From Bacteroides pyogenes DSM 20611 = JCM 6294 (lineage in GTDB: Bacteria; Bacteroidota; Bacteroidia; Bacteroidales; Bacteroidaceae), in the NCBI RefSeq assembly GCF_000428105.1, contig NZ_ATZH01000009.1, positions 1 to 64,000 on the forward strand: DNA of 64,000 nucleotides, in the 5' to 3' direction. The notes under the pieces were generated by a model. It was not told the DNA's origin. It ran no database searches and saw only the letters and a program-made list of their open reading frames with translations. Position 1 is the stretch's first letter. Every line of letters begins with the position of its first letter. Of this stretch, positions 9,672-62,311 are shown one piece after another. A program made the position numbers and the translations under genes.

Positions 9672-10202
9672 ATGATTATGAGTAAAGAAACGCTGATTAA
9701 AAGTATCCGGGAAATACCCGATTTCCCCAAACCGGGAATCTTATTCTACGATGTTACTACTTTGTTTAAAGACCCATGGTGTCTGCAAGAACTTTCAGAT
9801 ATAATGTACGAAATGTACAAAGAAAGAGGCATTACCAAAGTAGTAGGCATCGAATCAAGAGGTTTTATTATGGGACCTATTCTGGCTACACGCCTGAATG
9901 CCGGTTTTATCCCCATACGCAAACCGGGCAAGCTACCGGCAGAAACAATCGAAGAAAACTATGAAAAAGAATACGGAGAAGACACCGTAGAGATTCATAA
10001 AGACGCATTAGACTCAAACGACATAGTGTTACTACACGACGACTTATTGGCTACAGGCGGCACAATGAAAGCAGCCTGCGATCTGGTGAAGAAACTGAAA
10101 CCAAAGAAGGTGTATGTGAACTTCATTATCGAGTTGAAAGGGTTGAACGGCAAAGTAAAGTTCGACGATGACATAGAGGTGGAGTCCGTTTTAAACCTGT
10201 GA
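9672..10202 (+). CDS. apt: Adenine phosphoribosyltransferase
   Basis: Apt salvages adenine to AMP using PRPP. The 176-residue protein has the family N-terminus IREIPDFPKPGILFYDVTTL, the segment GIESRGFIMGPILATRL, and the PRPP-binding motif VLLHDDLLATGGTMKAA. A second ATG two codons in (9678) could be the true start. The gene follows mnmG by 50 bp, with the parS-like site in the gap, and may be co-transcribed with it. A 66-bp repeat block follows. Confidence 0.95.
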   Translation: MIMSKETLIKSIREIPDFPKPGILFYDVTTLFKDPWCLQELSDIMYEMYKERGITKVVGIESRGFIMGPILATRLNAGFIPIRKPGKLPAETIEENYEKEYGEDTVEIHKDALDSNDIVLLHDDLLATGGTMKAACDLVKKLKPKKVYVNFIIELKGLNGKVKFDDDIEVESVLNL

Positions 10203-51139: not shown

Positions 51140-53782
51140 CTACCTCCCCCTGACTATCTTCTTAATATCGTTCAGCTTGTTCAAAGCCTCGATGGGAGTA
51201 AGGTTGTTTACGTCGAGATTCAGTATCTCGTCGCGTATCTGGCAAAGAATGGGGTCTTCCAGTTGGAAGAAACTAAGCTGCATGCCCCCGCGATTCTCGC
51301 TTACTTCCGCCAGCGGTTTACCCGAAATGCCTTGCTGGCGACTGTCCGATTCAAGTTGCTTCAATATTTCGTCGGCACGCTTCACGATGCTTTTCGGCAT
51401 ACCCGCCATCTTTGCCACATGGATACCGAAGGAGTGCTCGCTTCCGCCCCGTTCGAGCTTGCGAAGGAAAATCACCCTGTTATCCACTTCTTTCACCGAC
51501 ACATTGTAGTTCTTAATCCGCTTGAACGACTTTTCCATTTCGTTCAGCTCGTGGTAGTGCGTGGCAAACAACGTACGCGCTTTGGCTTTGGGATGCTCGT
51601 GAATATATTCCACAATAGCCCACGCTATGGAGATTCCGTCGTAAGTGGAAGTTCCGCGTCCAAGCTCGTCGAACAGCACCAAGCTACGTGTAGAAATATT
51701 GTTCAGTATATCCGCCGCTTCGTTCATCTCCACCATAAATGTAGATTCTCCCACCGAAATGTTATCGCTCGCACCCACACGGGTAAATATCTTATCCACC
51801 AATCCGATACGCGCGCTCTCTGCCGGAACGAACGAACCTATCTGAGCAAGCAACGTGATTAAGGCGGTCTGTCGCAGAAGCGCCGACTTACCTGCCATGT
51901 TCGGACCGGTGATGATAATGATCTGTTGCGTACTGCTATCAAGCATCACATCATTGGCTATATACTTTTCTCCTATCGGCAGCTGCTTTTCAATCACCGG
52001 ATGGCGTCCCTGACGAATATCGAGCACATCACTGTCTTCAATCACCGGACGAATGTAATGGTTCTCACGCGCCACATTGGCGAACGAAAGCAAGCAGTCG
52101 ATACGCGCTATTTGATTGGCATTAATCTGTATCTGTGGAATAAATTCCGCCAAAGCCTGTACCAGATCGGCATACAACCGCGTTTCCAACGCCATGATTT
52201 TGTCTTCCGCCCCGAGAATCTTTTCTTCATACTCCTTCAGCTCCTGCGTAATATAGCGTTCGGCATTCACCAACGTCTGCTTGCGTATCCATTCCTGCGG
52301 CACCTTATCCTTATGCCCGTTGCGCACTTCGATGTAATAACCGAATACATTGTTGTAAGCCACCTTCAGGCTCGGTATTCCCGTCTGTTCGCTTTCTCTC
52401 TGTTGAATCTGAAGCAAGTAATCCTTTCCCGAATACGAAATCCGACGCAGTTCGTCGAGCTCGGCATTCACGCCGTCCTTTATCACTCCGCCTTTATTTA
52501 TCAATAGGGGAGGGTCGTTCTGAACCTCCTTGTCTATCCGGTCGCGAATGGAAACGCAAAGGTTCAGTTGCTCGCCGATGCGGTTTAGGCTCGCATTATC
52601 GGCTTCGAGACAAGCCTGCTTGATGGGTTGGATGGCCTGCAAAGCCACCTTCAACTGCACGACTTCGCGAGGAGAAACCCTGCCTACGGCAACCTTCGAA
52701 ACGATGCGCTCCAAATCGCCGATGAGATGCAACTGCTCTTCAATAAGCTCCTTGAAGTCGGGCTGCCTGAAGAAGTATTCCACCACATTCAGGCGGTCGT
52801 TGATGGGACGCTCGTCTTTCAGCGGAAACACCATCCAACGCTTGAGCAGGCGGGCTCCCATCGGACTGATTGTACGGTCGACCACATCTATCAGACTGCT
52901 TCCCCCGTCGTTCATGCTGCCTATGAGTTCGAGGCTGCGAACGGTAAACTTATCCAACCGAACGTACTTTTCCTCTTCGATGCGTGCCAGCGAAGTGATG
53001 TGCCCTATTTGCGTATGTTGCGTCATGGTGAGGTATTGCAGAATAGCACCCGATGCGATAATACCGTTTTTGAGATGCTCCACGCCAAACCCTTTCAGAT
53101 TCTTGGTTTCGAAATGCTTCAGCAATTTCTCACGCGCCGAACTGTCGGTAAACACCCAATCGTCGAGTTCGAAAGTAAAGAATTTGCTGCCGAAGTTTCC
53201 CTCGAACATCCCTCTTCTTCCGCGTTCGAAAAGCACCTCTTTGGGCGCGAAGTTATTAAGCAGCTTGTCTACATAATCAAACGGTCCCTCAGCCGTGAGA
53301 AACTCGCCGGTAGATATATCGAGAAAAGCTACTCCGCAACTCCCTTTGCCGAAGTGAACCGCAGCAAGAAAGTTGTTCTCCTTGTAATTCAGCACATTGT
53401 CATTGATAGATACCCCGGGCGTAACCAGCTCCGTGATGCCCCGCTTCACGAGCTTCTTGGTAAGTTTAGGGTCTTCCAACTGATCGCAAATGGCAACGCG
53501 CTTACCGGCGCGAACCAATTTAGGCAAATAAGTATCGAGCGCATGATGAGGAAATCCCGCCATCTCGATGGTTTTCTCTTTTCCATTGGCGCGCTTGGTC
53601 AGGGTAATTCCTAGTATTTCGGATGAAATGATGGCATCTGTAGAATAAGTTTCGTAAAAATCGCCGCAACGAAACAGCATCACTGCATCCGGATGTTTGG
53701 CTTTCAAATCCAGAAATTGCTTCATCATGGGCGTGAGGACAATATCTTTATCATTCACTGTAATTTCTTTCTCTTTTCTCAT
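51140..53782 (-). CDS. mutS: DNA mismatch repair protein MutS
   Basis: MutS recognises mismatches and small loops and starts repair with MutL. From the ATG at 53782 it is 880 residues, a normal length. It has the mismatch-wedge motif [15 protein letters not shown], the connector and lever domains, and the ATPase with Walker [34 protein letters not shown], Walker [21 protein letters not shown] and LFATHYHEL. The upstream frame to 53839 is rejected because the -7 element lies inside it. Repeat-rich regions in this window would be direct substrates for MutS, but no link is shown. miaB lies upstream on the same strand, separated by a small RNA candidate. Confidence 0.97.
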
Positions 53783-53964: not shown

Positions 53965-53995
53965 TTTGCAGTTTTCGCAAAAGTGCCTACCTTTG
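53965..53995 (+). promoter_or_regulatory. Complete Bacteroides promoter for a small RNA
   Basis: TTTG at 53965-53968, a 19-bp spacer, then TACCTTTG at 53988-53995. Both elements match consensus. No protein gene follows on this strand for 2 kb; a terminator does at 54039-54063. Confidence 0.75.
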
Positions 53996-54001
53996 CAATG
54001 T

Positions 54002-54063
54002 GTTTTTCATAGTATTAGATTTAAGGTTAACAAAGGTTGGAGTACAGCGGTACTCCTTTTTTT
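54002..54063 (+). ncRNA. Candidate small RNA between mutS and miaB
   Basis: A transcript of about 60 nt is bounded by the complete promoter upstream and by a terminator: GGAGTAC (54039-54045), loop AGCG, GTACTCC (54050-54056), then a T-run. The 5' part contains TTTTTCATAGTATTAG then ATTTAAGGTTAACAAAGG. A very similar segment occurs at 55976-56008 before another terminator, so the motif is probably functional. No start codon with a useful frame is present. I cannot name a known RNA family for it. Confidence 0.6.
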
Positions 54064-54288
54064 ATGCCCGTACGCTTCCTCCTTACGCTATTTTTTTGAG
54101 TCAATCCAACAACCTTGTGGACGGTATATACCTATTTCTTAAAGAGGCTTATCTATACCAGATAAACGGTAAGCGACTCTCAACCCCATACAAAGGAATT
54201 ATCAGTGACTTCGGTTCATAATTGAAAGATTCACTTTGATTACATTTACGACCTCGATAAACCTTCTTTCGAAAAGTATTAACGCGCA

Positions 54289-55656
54289 TCAGACAAGCAC
54301 ACCTTTTAATGTGGCAGAGCTGGATTCAGTGATACAGACATTTACGAAATCACCCACGTGGTGACTGCCACGGTCGAATACTACGACACGATTCTGTTCC
54401 GTGCGTCCGAAAAGTTGCTCACGCGAACGTTTGGAAACACCCTCCACCAAGACTTCGTACGTTTTTCCAATGCAGCGGGCATTCGATTCTGCGGAAAGAC
54501 GATTCTGCAGAGCGATAATCTCATTAAGTCGGCGCACCTTCACTTCTTCGGGAACATTATCTTCGAGATGTTTCGACGCATACGTACCGGGACGTTCGGA
54601 ATACTTGAACATAAAAGCTGCGTCGTATCCGCACTCTTCCATGAGCGAGAGAGACATCCGATGGTCTTCCTCCGTCTCTGAGTGAAAACCAGAGAATATA
54701 TCGGTGCTCAGACCGCAATCGGGGACGATGCGCTTAATAGCCGCTACCCGTTCCAGATACCATTCGCGGGTGTATTTGCGGTTCATTAGTTTCAGGATGC
54801 GCGAACTTCCGCTCTGCACAGGCAGGTGGATATGTTTGCACACATTTGGCACTTGAGCGATGACTTCCAGCGTTTCGTCGCTCATATCTTTAGGATGCGA
54901 AGTGGTAAAACGAACCCGAACGCCCGGAGCGGCTTCCGCCACTGTGCGCAGCAATACCGGAAAAGTAATCACTTCACCCGAAGACTTCTCGAAGCGGTAG
55001 GAGTTGACGTTCTGGCCCAACAGCGTAATCTCTTTGTAGCCTTTGCTTACCAGATCAGATACCTCGTTCAGGATGCTTTCCACATCGCGGCTCCGTTCGC
55101 GTCCACGGGTATAGGGCACGATACAGTAAGTACAAAAATTGTTGCAGCCGCGCATGATGGAAACAAAACCCGAGATGTGGTTTCCACAGATACGCGAGGG
55201 AATCACATCGCGATAAGTTTCGGTAGTGGAAAGCTCCACGTTGATGGCTTTCTCTCCTGCCTCTACCGAAGCGATAAGTTCGGGCAAGGTGAGATAAGCA
55301 TCGGGGCCTACTACCAAATCGACGTGATGGTTGGTGATGAGGTCATCTTTCACCCGTTCGGCCATACAGCCCAATACGCCCACAATGAAATTCTTCTTCT
55401 TTTTCTTCAGCGAGTGGAAAAACTCAAGGCGGTTCAGAATCTTCTGCTCGGCATTGTCGCGGATGGAGCAGGTATTCATAAATACCGCATCGGCTTCTTC
55501 AAGCGATTCGGCCGGAGAATACCCAGCCATTTGCATTACAGAGGCTATCACCTCACTGTCGGCCACGTTCATCTGACAGCCGTAGGTTTCGATAAACAAC
55601 TTTTTGTTGTTATCGGCAGTTGCGGATTTAAAGTCCGCTCCCGTCAATTCATTCAT
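54289..55656 (-). CDS. miaB: tRNA-2-methylthio-N6-dimethylallyladenosine synthase MiaB
   Basis: MiaB is a radical SAM enzyme that adds a methylthio group to i6A37 of tRNAs. The 455-residue protein has the N-terminal methylthiotransferase domain with cysteines in ETYGCQMNVADSEV, FMNTCSIRDNAEQ and VGVLGCMAERVK; the radical SAM motif MRGCNNFCTYCIVPYTRGRE; and a C-terminal TRAM domain (EVLVEGVSKRSREQLFGRTE). The HLPVQSGSSRILKLMNRKYT segment is also typical. Length and motifs are complete. Its promoter is on the minus strand at 55683. Confidence 0.97.
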   Translation of the reverse strand: MNELTGADFKSATADNNKKLFIETYGCQMNVADSEVIASVMQMAGYSPAESLEEADAVFMNTCSIRDNAEQKILNRLEFFHSLKKKKKNFIVGVLGCMAERVKDDLITNHHVDLVVGPDAYLTLPELIASVEAGEKAINVELSTTETYRDVIPSRICGNHISGFVSIMRGCNNFCTYCIVPYTRGRERSRDVESILNEVSDLVSKGYKEITLLGQNVNSYRFEKSSGEVITFPVLLRTVAEAAPGVRVRFTTSHPKDMSDETLEVIAQVPNVCKHIHLPVQSGSSRILKLMNRKYTREWYLERVAAIKRIVPDCGLSTDIFSGFHSETEEDHRMSLSLMEECGYDAAFMFKYSERPGTYASKHLEDNVPEEVKVRRLNEIIALQNRLSAESNARCIGKTYEVLVEGVSKRSREQLFGRTEQNRVVVFDRGSHHVGDFVNVCITESSSATLKGVLV

Positions 55657-55690: not shown

Positions 55691-55962
55691 TAACAGAAAA
55701 TCGGGAAATGCGAGTGATTGGAAGAAGTTTAAATGTGAATAAAAGGTATAAATACAGCGCTTTTTTCTGACATAGAGTCAGAAGGCAGGCAAAGGGTGAA
55801 TTCAAACGATTGCTTTCTTCTTGCGAATGACGGAGATGGAATGATAAAAAACACAGAAAAAAGTTGCAGTAAAATGCCAATACTTATAATAATTGTTAAC
55901 GATAGACATATTTACTCTTCATTTCTTGGTAAATCTGAGTTTAATTTACAATTTTGCATGGT

Positions 55963-56039
55963 GAAAGAAACATTAGATTTTTTCATAGTTAAGGTTTAGG
56001 TTAAAAAAATTAAGGGGAGCTGTGAAGCTGCCCTTTTTT
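55963..56039 (+). ncRNA. Second candidate small RNA, related to the one at 54 kb
   Basis: A -7-like CAATTTTG (55949-55956, one mismatch) is followed by TTTTTTCATAGTTAAGG and TTTAGGTTAAAAAAATTAAG, similar to the 54-kb RNA. A terminator follows: GGG-AGCT (56015-56021), loop GTGA, AGCT-G-CCC, then six Ts to 56039. The gene at 56116 has its own promoter after the terminator, so this is a separate short transcript or a leader attenuator. Confidence 0.5.
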
Positions 56040-56074
56040 CGTGCCAAAAAGTTGGGTAAAATAAGATTAAATCA

Positions 56075-56082
56075 TACCTTTG
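56075..56082 (+). promoter_or_regulatory. Bacteroides-type -7 element for the 56.1-kb gene
   Basis: The sequence TACCTTTG matches TAnnTTTG, 33 bp before the ATG at 56116. It contains the TTG codon that would otherwise serve as an upstream start. Confidence 0.6.
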
Positions 56083-56115: not shown

Positions 56116-56757
56116 ATGAATGTCGTAACTTTTCTTCTTTTTGTTGGCGGAATCGCTTATTGGGTAATTCGGCAAGCTCAAAAGAACAGCGAGGCGGACA
56201 GCCGTCGCAACCTTTCCGTTCCTCCGGAACCGGAGATATCTCCCGATGCCTCTCCTGTGTCCGAACCATGGGGACAAACTTCTTCTTTAGATGATCTTCT
56301 AAATCCTATTCCTTATGAAACCGAAGTGAAAAAAGAATCTGTGCGAGAACAAAGGGATTTGGCGGAACGCGAAGCGGATAGAAGCGGAAGAGGTTATCGT
56401 CCGGCAGGTCCCTCCCCCTTTGAAACAGAGAGAAGCCAGGCAAAGAGGCATGCGGGAAAAGGCAGGGACCTTTACAATCCGAAAAGAGACAAGAGATTTC
56501 CTCAAGTGCAAAGAGAGACTTCAAGGCGAACGACTGATAGAAAAATATTAGAAAGCCAGAAGAGTTCTCGTTGGGAAGAAGAAAGCCGTTTCAGGCAAGA
56601 GGGCGAACGCGTAAGCAAGGATACACATGAATTGTACGACCGCAACCACCCGTTTGCCGATGCAAAGACCGAAGACGAGAACTTTGTCATTCGCACTGTG
56701 GAAGAAGTACGGAAAGCGATTGTCTGGGGAGAAATTCTGCAAAGGAAACATTTTTAA
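56116..56757 (+). CDS. Hypothetical membrane-anchored charged protein
   Basis: Unrecognised. The 213-residue protein has one N-terminal membrane helix (VVTFLLFVGGIAYWVI), then a long, highly charged low-complexity middle rich in Arg, Glu and Ser (about 30-185), then a compact C-terminal helix, FVIRTVEEVRKAIVWGEILQ. I recall C-terminal segments of the 'DxRKAIIxSEIL' kind in other Bacteroides hypothetical proteins, so that end may be the conserved functional part. The start at 56116 is chosen over TTG at 56080 because the latter is inside the promoter. A strong terminator follows, so it is monocistronic. Confidence 0.7.
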   Translation: MNVVTFLLFVGGIAYWVIRQAQKNSEADSRRNLSVPPEPEISPDASPVSEPWGQTSSLDDLLNPIPYETEVKKESVREQRDLAEREADRSGRGYRPAGPSPFETERSQAKRHAGKGRDLYNPKRDKRFPQVQRETSRRTTDRKILESQKSSRWEEESRFRQEGERVSKDTHELYDRNHPFADAKTEDENFVIRTVEEVRKAIVWGEILQRKHF

Positions 56758-59020: not shown

Positions 59021-59134
59021 TGCGAATGATAAAGAGGCTTGGACGATAGTTCGTATATAATCTAAGGCTCGAAATAATTGTAGCCGACTCCGAAAATCGG
59101 TTGCCGGTAAGTATTAACCAACAAATTCAACAGT

Positions 59135-62100
59135 ATGAGAAACACGCTTAATTTAAGATTCAGCTTTCTTATCGCGTTTCTTTTGTTCATGCCCATGATG
59201 ATTCATGCCTTTCCTCCGGAAGGCATAACAATCAGAGGCAGGGTGACAGACGAAGCGTTGAAAGAAGCCGTTCCCGGAGCTAACGTAACTGTGAAGGGTA
59301 CCACCATCGGAACAATCACCGGTTTCGACGGAACTTACAGCATTGTGGTTCCGAGTAAAAAATCGGTATTGGTCTTTTCGTTCATGGGCTATGTCACTCA
59401 GGAAATTACAGTGGGAGACAAAAGAACAATCGATGTCAGTTTGAAGGAAGACGCGAATGTGCTCGGAGAGGTGGAAGTCGTTGCTATCGCATACGGTAAT
59501 CAGGATAAAAACCTGCTTACAAGCGCCGTATCTTCCATCAGTAACAAAGAGCTGATAAAATCGCCGGTGGCAAGTGTCACCAATGTGCTGGCGGGAGCCA
59601 TGCCCGGTGTTTCGTCGGTGCAGACCAGCGGACAGCCCGGAAAGGATGCCGCAGCTATCTATGTACGCGGTTCGGGCTCGCTGAATGATTCGCAATCCAA
59701 ACCGTTGATACTGGTAGATGGTGTAGAACGCGAGTTTTCTCAAATCGACCCGAATGAGATTGAAAGCATCTCTATCTTGAAAGATGCCTCTTCTACAGCC
59801 GTATTTGGTGTGCGGGGAGCCAACGGCGTGGTTCTGGTGACCACCCGGCGGGGAAAGAGCGGCAAACCGCAAATCAATGTAAGCACGTCGCTGGGCTTGC
59901 AACAGCCTATCTCGCTCGTAGAGCAGACCGGAAGCTATGAGTTTGCCCGTTTCTGGAACATCAAGCAGCAACTCGACGGAGTGGCAGACAAGAAGCGTTA
60001 TTTTACTCCCGAGCAGGTAGAGGCTTATCGCACCGGTTCGGATCCCATTATGTACCCCAGCATGGACTGGAAGAAGTATATCTTCCACGATGTGTATCTA
60101 CAGAGCAAGAACAACATCAACATATCGGGCGGAAGTGAGGATGTAAAGTATTTCATCTCTATCGGTTACCTCTACCAGAATGGACTTTTAAAAGATCTTC
60201 CCGGACAGAAGTACAACAACAACTATCGTTACGACCGTTATAATTATCGTGCCAATATCGACGCCAAGCTGACAAAAACTACGACCATGAAGTTGGGTAT
60301 CGGCGGTAATCTGGGTAAAACGCAAGAGCCTCGCAGCGTGGTATCCGACACAGGACAAGACCAGAACCCGTGGGTTATCGCACAGATATGGTCGCATCCG
60401 TTTGCCGGACCGGGATTTATAGACGGGGTGCGCACGCTGGTTCCGAAAGATCTTGTTCCGCTTGGCGAGGTTCTTCGCGACGGTATGTTCGTCTTCTACG
60501 GAAAGGGCTATACGCAAAATTATCGTACCAATTTGAATTTGGATTTGGACATTACTCAAAAAATGGACTTCCTGACGAAGGGCCTGAGCGTTTCCGTAAA
60601 AGGAGCGTACGACAATGCCTTCAAACTGTTTAAAAAGCGTCCGGGCGGTGATGTGGAGAGCCAAACCGTTTATTATAAGTCGTATTTCGACTCCAACGGC
60701 AATATGCCTGCCACCGATCCGGACTATGATAAGTCGTTGATTTATCTGCCTTCCGGCAGCGACACACCGCTGGGCTACGCCGAAGAGCGGGGACGCGACC
60801 AGAACTGGTATATAGAAGGGCGTGTGAACTACGAACGCGCTTTCGGGAACCACAAAGTTTCCGGGCTTTTGCTGTATAATCAGTCACGCGATTACTACCC
60901 CGACGCATATACCTATATTCCCAGAAGCTATATCGGTTTTGTCGGCCGGGCTACTTACAGCTACTTGAGTAAATACCTGTTCGATGTAAACGTGGGTTAC
61001 AACGGATCTGAAAACTTCGCTCCCGGAAAGAACCGTTTCGGGATTTTTCCCGCATTCTCCGCCGGATGGGTGGCAAGCGCGGAGAAGTTCATGGCCAACC
61101 AGCATGTGGTGGATTATCTGAAACTAAGACTCTCGTGGGGACGCGTGGGCAGCGATAAAGGCATCGACTCCCGCTTCATGTATATGCCTGCCGTTTGGCA
61201 ACAGTCGGGCGGATACAGCTTCGGAGTGAATACACCCGAAAATGCTCCCGCTTTTGGAATCACTAAAATAGGTAATCCGCATGTGACTTGGGAAACCGCC
61301 GACAAGCAGAATTACGGTATAGACGTTAAGTTTCTCGACAATCGCTTGTCGCTCAATTTCGACTATTTCATGGAGCGCCGTACGGGGATTCTCATCACTC
61401 CCGAATCCACTCCTGCCATCATCGCCACTTCCTTACCCAACTCAAATATAGGTAAAGTGAATAATCACGGTTACGAAGTGGCTCTCGGATGGAACGACGC
61501 GATAGGAAAGGATTTCAATTATTACATGAACGCCAATGTGTCTTTTGCGCGCAATAAAATCATTTACCGCGACGAAGTACCCAAGCAGTTCGACTATATG
61601 AATGTGACGGGAGGATCCACCGGACGCCAGACCAATGTATATAAATATATCCGCCTTTACCAGCAGGACGACTTTATAAAGGATGCAGAAGGCGGGCTGA
61701 CCTTGAAACCCGAACTTCCACAGCCGTACCAGAAGGTATATCCGGGTGACGCGATGTATGCCGACCTCAACGGAGACAACATTGTGGATGGGAAAGACAG
61801 GTGTGTGGCAGGATACGCTACCCGCCCCGAATATACATTCGGTTTGAACATGGGATGCAACTGGAAGGGATTCAGTTTCTCCATGCAATGGGCGGGCGCC
61901 ACCAACGTCAGCCGGATGTACGATATCGAATATCGTATTCCGTTCACTAACGCCGGCAAGCGCGGTTTGCTGACTTACTTCTACAATGATTGCTGGACTC
62001 CCGAAAACCAATTGGGAGCTGTTTATCCGCGTCCGGCAGAAGAATCGGAAAGCTGGAACTCCGAGCCTTCTACCTTATGGTTACAGGATGCTTCTTATCT

Positions 62101-62311
62101 CAGGCTGAAAAGTTTGAACGTAGGATATACCATTAGCGGCAACCGCCTACTGAAGAAGGTGGGAGTCAAATCTCTCGGAATCACCTTTAGCGGTTATAAC
62201 CTGTTAACGTTCTCTCCGCTCAAGTATATCGATCCGGAAAGCAACCCCGACCGGTTGGGAGATTATCCGTTAATCAAACTGTATAGTTTCGGTTTAAATC
62301 TTAACTTCTAA
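59135..62311 (+). CDS. SusC/RagA-family TonB-dependent outer membrane transporter
   Basis: A 1058-residue TonB-dependent receptor that would form the barrel of a SusCD glycan-import pair. After a signal peptide (residues about 9-25), a carboxypeptidase-regulatory-like domain (about 30-110) begins TIRGRVTDEALKEAVPGANV. Next come the plug with SVQTSGQPGKDAAAIYVRGS and PLILVDGVEREFSQIDPNEI, the SILKDASSTAVFGVRGANG motif, and the barrel ending FGLNLNF. There is no N-terminal STN domain and no nearby sigma/anti-sigma pair, so this transporter is probably not a transducer. susD follows after 12 bp. Confidence 0.95.
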   Translation: MRNTLNLRFSFLIAFLLFMPMMIHAFPPEGITIRGRVTDEALKEAVPGANVTVKGTTIGTITGFDGTYSIVVPSKKSVLVFSFMGYVTQEITVGDKRTIDVSLKEDANVLGEVEVVAIAYGNQDKNLLTSAVSSISNKELIKSPVASVTNVLAGAMPGVSSVQTSGQPGKDAAAIYVRGSGSLNDSQSKPLILVDGVEREFSQIDPNEIESISILKDASSTAVFGVRGANGVVLVTTRRGKSGKPQINVSTSLGLQQPISLVEQTGSYEFARFWNIKQQLDGVADKKRYFTPEQVEAYRTGSDPIMYPSMDWKKYIFHDVYLQSKNNINISGGSEDVKYFISIGYLYQNGLLKDLPGQKYNNNYRYDRYNYRANIDAKLTKTTTMKLGIGGNLGKTQEPRSVVSDTGQDQNPWVIAQIWSHPFAGPGFIDGVRTLVPKDLVPLGEVLRDGMFVFYGKGYTQNYRTNLNLDLDITQKMDFLTKGLSVSVKGAYDNAFKLFKKRPGGDVESQTVYYKSYFDSNGNMPATDPDYDKSLIYLPSGSDTPLGYAEERGRDQNWYIEGRVNYERAFGNHKVSGLLLYNQSRDYYPDAYTYIPRSYIGFVGRATYSYLSKYLFDVNVGYNGSENFAPGKNRFGIFPAFSAGWVASAEKFMANQHVVDYLKLRLSWGRVGSDKGIDSRFMYMPAVWQQSGGYSFGVNTPENAPAFGITKIGNPHVTWETADKQNYGIDVKFLDNRLSLNFDYFMERRTGILITPESTPAIIATSLPNSNIGKVNNHGYEVALGWNDAIGKDFNYYMNANVSFARNKIIYRDEVPKQFDYMNVTGGSTGRQTNVYKYIRLYQQDDFIKDAEGGLTLKPELPQPYQKVYPGDAMYADLNGDNIVDGKDRCVAGYATRPEYTFGLNMGCNWKGFSFSMQWAGATNVSRMYDIEYRIPFTNAGKRGLLTYFYNDCWTPENQLGAVYPRPAEESESWNSEPSTLWLQDASYLRLKSLNVGYTISGNRLLKKVGVKSLGITFSGYNLLTFSPLKYIDPESNPDRLGDYPLIKLYSFGLNLNF

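Follow-up and report, generated by a model that had tools for sequence, protein, structure and literature searches.

FopS and a predicted miaB-linked relative in two intergenic regions of Bacteroides pyogenes

To our knowledge, few small RNAs (sRNAs) of Bacteroidota have a known function. Two gaps between protein-coding genes, at about 54 and 56 kb of a 64,000-nt stretch of the genome of Bacteroides pyogenes DSM 20611 = JCM 6294 (contig NZ_ATZH01000009.1, positions 1 to 64,000; referred to as the window), share a short motif and raise the question whether both encode members of one sRNA family and, if so, what these RNAs would act on. The published frame for this question comes from FopS, which has 14 paralogs in B. 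thetaiotaomicron, is bound by the protein RbpB and represses translation of SusC (Rüttiger et al. 2025, PMC11697453; all statements on this work refer to the accessible part of the text). Published features of fopS genes include the canonical Bacteroides sigma-factor promoter and a seed in a single-stranded 5′ region; by base pairing around the start codon of SusC-type importer mRNAs, FopS prevents their translation, an effect that the RRM protein RbpB antagonises (PMC11697453). The same text describes Bacteroidota as being without classical RNA chaperones and reports conservation of FopS within the Bacteroidaceae (PMC11697453).

Here, we propose, with a probability of roughly three in four, that the two gaps encode separate base-pairing sRNAs of one superfamily, the 54-kb element being FopS and the 56-kb element a distinct, single-copy relative linked to miaB. 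The features on which this reading is based are collected in Table 1.

Table 1. Features of the two sRNA loci and their surroundings in the window
Feature	Position	Strand	Basis
FopS-copy promoter, TTTG-N19-TACCTTTG	53965..53995	+	Read in sequence; matches the published canonical promoter of fopS genes (PMC11697453, accessible part)
FopS small RNA (Rfam RF04319)	54000..54066	+	78.2 bits, gathering score 56, model positions 1-71 of 71
FopS 5′ region, unpaired in the Rfam model, holding the published R1/R1′ seed	54003..54030	+	Model alignment; exact limits inferred
FopS terminator hairpin and T run	54039..54063	+	Model alignment, terminator scan
mutS, divergent neighbour of the FopS copy	51140..53782	-	TIGR01070, 920.8 bits; ATG start picked by eye
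miaB, divergent neighbour of the miaB-linked RNA	54289..55656	-	TIGR01574, 506.7 bits
Promoter-like TTG, N20, CAATTTTG (one departure from TANNTTTG)	55926..55956	+	Read in sequence
Predicted miaB-linked small RNA, about 80 nt	55961..56041	+	5′ end inferred from promoter; model R1 match 55955-56039, 101.8 bits
Near-invariant 26-nt core TTTTTCATAGTTAAGGTTTAGGTTAA	55979..56004	+	Alignment of 21 loci
Terminator hairpin and T run of the miaB-linked RNA	56012..56039	+	Covariation
TACCTTTG of the downstream gene's separate promoter	56075..56082	+	Read in gap; TANNTTTG in the same gap in 30/35 loci of the gene family
Downstream gene, small putative membrane protein (by eye), conserved neighbour	56116..56757	+	No Pfam/NCBIfam match
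Site of predicted FopS pairing, covering the start codon of the SusC gene at 59135-62311	59113..59146	+	-22.1 kcal/mol

The shared motif and the FopS copy in the 54-kb gap

The initial annotation had described the two gaps as sharing a motif and a purine-rich stretch ahead of different hairpins. The 11-mer TTTTTCATAGT is indeed exact at 54003-54013 (+) and 55979-55989 (+), and on the 3′ side of both copies a AAGGTTAA/AGGTTAA stretch is followed by a hairpin with a T run. Taken alone, the 11-mer is modest evidence of relationship: with at most one mismatch it has six matches vs 1.87 expected, a number reached by none of 100 shuffles. A chance repeat is ruled out by the match to the FopS family model together with the conservation described below. 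The sole other exact copy lies at 9958-9968 (-) and was rejected as a further family member, a FopS-like body or terminator being absent around it by eye.

Scanning of the whole window with Rfam models gave one match at curated cut-offs, FopS, with boundaries slightly wider than the limits 54002-54063 first assigned to the element. Judged by this match, the 54-kb element is FopS RF04319, an already known RNA, and this part of the finding counts as known because FopS has been published as a repressor of SusC translation. The canonical Bacteroides promoter is present directly 5′ of the element, exactly as first read (TTTG at 53965-53968, N19, TACCTTTG at 53988-53995), and it is also correct that no gene follows downstream, since the 3′ end of miaB on the opposite strand comes next. 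The statement that both elements flank a mutS-miaB region holds in part: the 56-kb element (+) lies beyond the miaB start, and the 54-kb element lies between mutS and miaB (-). The neighbourhood of the FopS copy is not conserved, because mutS was found near miaB in just two of 110 miaB loci searched, including the window's own.

The 3.43-Mb draft genome contains six FopS copies over the cut-off plus a seventh, weak relative. The 5′ body is nearly identical in the six copies, four of which (including the window's) carry one hairpin and two another. The idea of an sRNA family with a common 5′ body and a variable 3′ hairpin was supported by covariance models, with the 54-kb element belonging to a curated family. 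A relative in the same genome, L007 (C9:85716-85788, -), has the core TTTTTCATAGAGATTTAGATTTAAGG and its own hairpin and scores 37.9 bits as FopS and 28 bits as BTnc231, under both cut-offs.

Of 199 genomes from the window's GTDB family, 186 have a FopS match (E <= 0.001), which exceeds the cut-off in 169; all 12 sampled genomes of genus g15 are among the 13 that lack one. In a sample of 295 Bacteroidales genomes, FopS was detected in 64 at E <= 1e-4 (58 over the cut-off), and the matches listed cover no fewer than 15 GTDB families other than that of the window. Named partial matches outside the Bacteroidaceae, covering 52-65% of the query, comprise five Parabacteroides distasonis records. FopS is now also placed outside the Bacteroidaceae, the family of its original description. 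In viral contigs, the exact FopS core was observed in 24 stretches vs two for the core of the miaB-linked RNA, and the Bacteroides xylanisolvens phage BX-TP2 matches the 5′ part of FopS.

A conserved element upstream of miaB

The 56-kb element matches no Rfam family at its cut-off; the best scores are 33.6 bits for BTnc231 (cut-off 80.4) and 30.7 bits for FopS (cut-off 56), and the ortholog L154 likewise scores 29.7 bits as FopS, under the cut-off. The two elements are nevertheless related as supposed, and the 56-kb element forms a conserved group of its own. This group was captured in alignment A1 and covariance model R1, built from 21 loci upstream of miaB; the window's 101.8 bits are high by construction because its copy is one of the 21 sequences. 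Across these loci the core varies only at one A/T position, by an inserted T in L078 and in the last base or so of L092. The terminator hairpin covaries, with six of nine pairs changed on both sides and 96.7% of cells paired, and none of 500 shuffles matches either the paired fraction or the covariation score; of five covariation measures, further pair types were reached by 11 of 500 shuffles and the other four by none. A simple terminator scan missed this hairpin, probably through its internal mismatch.

In a search without any tie to miaB, TTTTTCATAG was exact in 29 of 30 strong loci, L165 being one T shorter. A set of 36 representatives was obtained from 68 distinct rows by removing rows at least 85% identical to a kept one; core conservation in this set is partly by construction because its members were chosen by a near-exact core pattern, and the 29 of 30 strong loci give the less biased value. 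A TTG-N18-24-NANNTTTG promoter is located upstream in 28 of these 36 orthologs (shuffles: mean 1.3, at most 5). A scan for sigma-70 promoters was uninformative (two sites vs 3.6 expected). By its sequence features, the 56-kb element is a separate, single-copy FopS relative: the core is unpaired, the terminator hairpin covaries and a Bacteroides-type promoter of its own precedes it. It represents a variant distinct from the known FopS.

Model R1 has one match in the window genome, the next best place scoring 22.4 bits. Within the window's genus, 25 of 29 genomes contain a match of at least 80 bits, three have none, and one has a weak match only, which overlaps a FopS place. Matches were found in 70 of 198 genomes of the window's GTDB family (E <= 0.001) and in 101 of the 295 order genomes (E <= 0.01), 33 of which have a match of at least 70 bits, at one place each and distributed over 13 GTDB families. 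A phylum sample of 296 genomes gave matches at E <= 1e-4 in three only, all of the window's genus. The large genome searches with R1 used strict filters, by which weak matches can be lost.

The core lies upstream of miaB in Bacteroides, Barnesiella, Tannerellaceae, Paludibacter and others. It is inside the fetched stretch in 28 of 30 miaB loci of the genus, L110 and L111 differing in sequence there, and the RNA was detected in 21 of 80 named miaB loci at E <= 1e-4, 14 of these 21 having been used in the model. Among the 80, Prevotella, Parabacteroides An897 and Dysgonomonas are without the RNA within the at most 4 kb past miaB covered by the stretches, which does not mean absence from these genomes. 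The linkage also appears in the search that was not tied to miaB, with miaB present within 28 of 30 strong loci and, in a 29th (G024), about 2 kb off and divergent. In a set of 49 loci, partly fetched via miaB, the gene is present in 48 and divergent in 48/48, at a median distance of 132 nt. The identity of the MiaB protein falls to about 66-74% outside Bacteroides, and the core is almost unchanged. No report of the miaB-linked RNA was found in the literature covered; supplementary sRNA lists, which lie outside this coverage, may hold it under a BTnc number. The accessible parts of PMC10994844, PMC10861873, PMC13370916, PMC12119571 and PMC7366714 do not name miaB.

The gene downstream is unexpectedly conserved, and for this reason the 56-kb element has to be considered as a cis-acting leader (attenuator) of this putative membrane-protein gene, whose hairpin would stop or allow transcription into the gene. 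A next gene was called in 48 of the 49 loci; in 35 of 48 it belongs to one sequence cluster, always co-directional, and 29 of these 35 genes begin at a similar short distance past the hairpin. Five of the 35 loci are without TANNTTTG in the gap, as a leader would have it. The other 30, however, carry a separate TANNTTTG between terminator and gene, or 32 of 37 if L077 and L086 are added (shuffles of 37: mean 3.2, maximum 8). Furthermore, clustering puts a different gene first in 13 of the 48 loci, although by eye four of these (L077, L086, L141, L146) seem to encode a protein of the same kind, and the core resembles the trans-acting seed of FopS. We consider a leader unlikely. On account of the TANNTTTG in 30/35 loci, sRNA and gene look like tandem, separately started units in most loci, and, on the same sequence grounds, the shared motif seems to be more than part of the promoter of the next gene, the alternative that would have spoken against an sRNA. 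The product of 56116-56757 has a hydrophobic N-terminus followed by a lysine-rich part (by eye), with conserved orthologs, and a CoA-transferase gene comes next in the window.

That the 56-kb element encodes a peptide of 12-14 codons (MVKETLDFFIVKV in the window) is highly improbable. In the window and in Bacteroides loci the frame has no interruption, but only eight of the 36 representatives (L092, L163 and six rows from Bacteroides) have an ATG in frame at no more than 21 nt from the core, 18 of the 36 are without an in-frame start codon of any kind, and the core bases are identical at third codon positions too. By these start counts the peptide reading fails outside Bacteroides and is disfavoured.

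Predicted pairing with translation start regions

As base-pairing sRNAs, both RNAs would be transcribed from their own Bacteroides-type promoters, as predicted from the sequence of these copies, and each would consist of a mostly unpaired 5′ body followed by an intrinsic terminator. FopS would act by its published mechanism at the start codons of SusC-type importer mRNAs, with RbpB presumably binding and antagonising this copy as well. Two RRM_1 proteins are encoded in this genome, in keeping with that mechanism. The 26-nt core of the miaB-linked RNA would most likely also serve as an antisense seed for translation start regions. Two points make such pairing the likeliest function here: the complementarity of UUUUUCAU to AUGAAAAA, and the known mode of action of FopS.

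Pairing was predicted with FopS nucleotides 1-38 on 554 genes of at least 150 codons, taken from roughly one quarter of the genome; intramolecular folding does not enter the energies, and start codons were assigned mechanically. Compared with the rest of the 554 genes, the prediction favours the starts of SusC genes (12 genes, AUC 0.707, p 0.007) and of SusD genes (8 genes, AUC 0.830, p 0.0007), and none of 40 shuffled RNAs reaches either AUC. The window's own SusC gene (59135; domains PF13715, PF07715 and PF00593) ranks first of 291 genes in a smaller sample and second of 554, with a predicted duplex of 12 contiguous pairs, wobble included, spanning the start codon. All five Sus-type genes among the top 15 predicted FopS targets have SusC-type or SusD domains in Pfam. 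Of 82 ortholog pairs, five reach -14 kcal/mol or better with FopS in both genomes, a number equalled by one of 40 shuffles (permutation p 0.035). That FopS pairs with the starts of Sus genes in this genome is supported at the level of prediction. The mean pairing energy at starts was no better than at internal ATGs, for FopS and the miaB-linked RNA alike.

For the miaB-linked RNA, the 554 sampled genes yielded no target class that stands out: neither SusC starts (AUC 0.579, p 0.18, 1/40 shuffles as high) nor SusD starts (AUC 0.592, p 0.19, 4/40 shuffles as high) are favoured. This RNA is stickier than its own shuffles everywhere. Ten of the 82 ortholog pairs reach -14 kcal/mol or better in both genomes, with shuffles giving at most six; with permuted ortholog pairings as the reference, only a weak excess remains (p 0.043 at -14, 0.386 at -16 and 0.162 at -18 kcal/mol), so that robust conservation of targets was not found among these pairs. 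UAACC as a leader-side partner of AGGUU occurs in 26 of 553 genes of the own genome (shuffle mean 17.1, maximum 30) and in 47 of 790 genes of G188 (shuffle mean 25.7, maximum 35), which is suggestive only. Long complementary targets were rejected: an 18-nt complement with at most three mismatches has ten places in the genome, one of which is the gene itself, vs 12 for a backward control.

The near-invariance of the core and the missing target class would also fit a conserved body that is mainly a protein-binding site, with the miaB-linked RNA titrating RbpB or its relatives and pairing with no mRNA. In line with this, a 41-nt motif in FopS-type RNAs was derived from RbpB CLIP, and RbpB binds single-stranded regions (PMC11697453, accessible part). 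Pairing of FopS with mRNA, however, is published with compensatory mutations, and the published affinity of RbpB is low micromolar only (PMC11697453, accessible part). With this affinity and two RRM_1 proteins encoded by the window genome, titration by one gene seems less likely, and we consider this explanation quite improbable. Pairing with translation start regions, like FopS, is the most likely function of the miaB-linked RNA.

Relation to known families and significance

The miaB-linked RNA shares with FopS (RF04319) the sequence UUUUUCAUAGU, the AGGUUAA stretch, the unpaired body and the 3′ terminator. It differs by its score below the FopS cut-off, a rearranged middle and about 15 extra 5′ nucleotides, counted from its inferred start, and by having one strong copy per genome, beside miaB, in contrast to the several paralogs of FopS. 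GibS (RF04182) has the same 5′ R1-type sequence but is about 145 nt long and has a second seed (PMC7366714, accessible part). The window's FopS scores 40.1 bits as GibS vs a cut-off of 115, the 56-kb element is unlisted at E <= 5, and the best GibS score anywhere in the window genome is 46.6 bits, below the cut-off. BTnc231 (RF04180), the top-scoring Rfam family on the 56-kb RNA, has a UUUUUUUCAUAG start and a hairpin as in this RNA; the match stays far below the cut-off and extends beyond the terminator into the next promoter, and no place in the window genome exceeds the BTnc231 cut-off.

Seven stretches in other Bacteroidales families (L278 in G392; L279 and L280 in G480; L281 and L282 in G345; L283 in G490; L284 in G435) contain two to five units each that resemble FopS or the miaB-linked RNA. 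These clustered units, found via weaker R1 matches, contain variant cores (TTTTCATAGGTTAAG and TTCATAGAATAAGGGTTAAGG, for example); by eye, they have their own terminators, and a TTTG element lies upstream in several; FopS, GibS and BTnc231 are all below cut-off there, with 38.6 bits as FopS at best.

FopS, GibS, BTnc231, the miaB-linked RNA and these clusters might form one ancient superfamily of start-codon antisense RNAs with a body of the type UUUUCAUAG ... AGGUU and a variable terminator, in which the miaB-linked RNA would be the oldest fixed single-copy member and a core regulator of many Bacteroidales families; this is a tentative proposal, to which we give somewhat less than even odds. 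Maintained at one locus beside miaB in no fewer than 13 families, and with hardly any change in its 26-nt core, such an sRNA would represent a rare case of a shared regulator, and laboratory strains would allow its deletion and testing.
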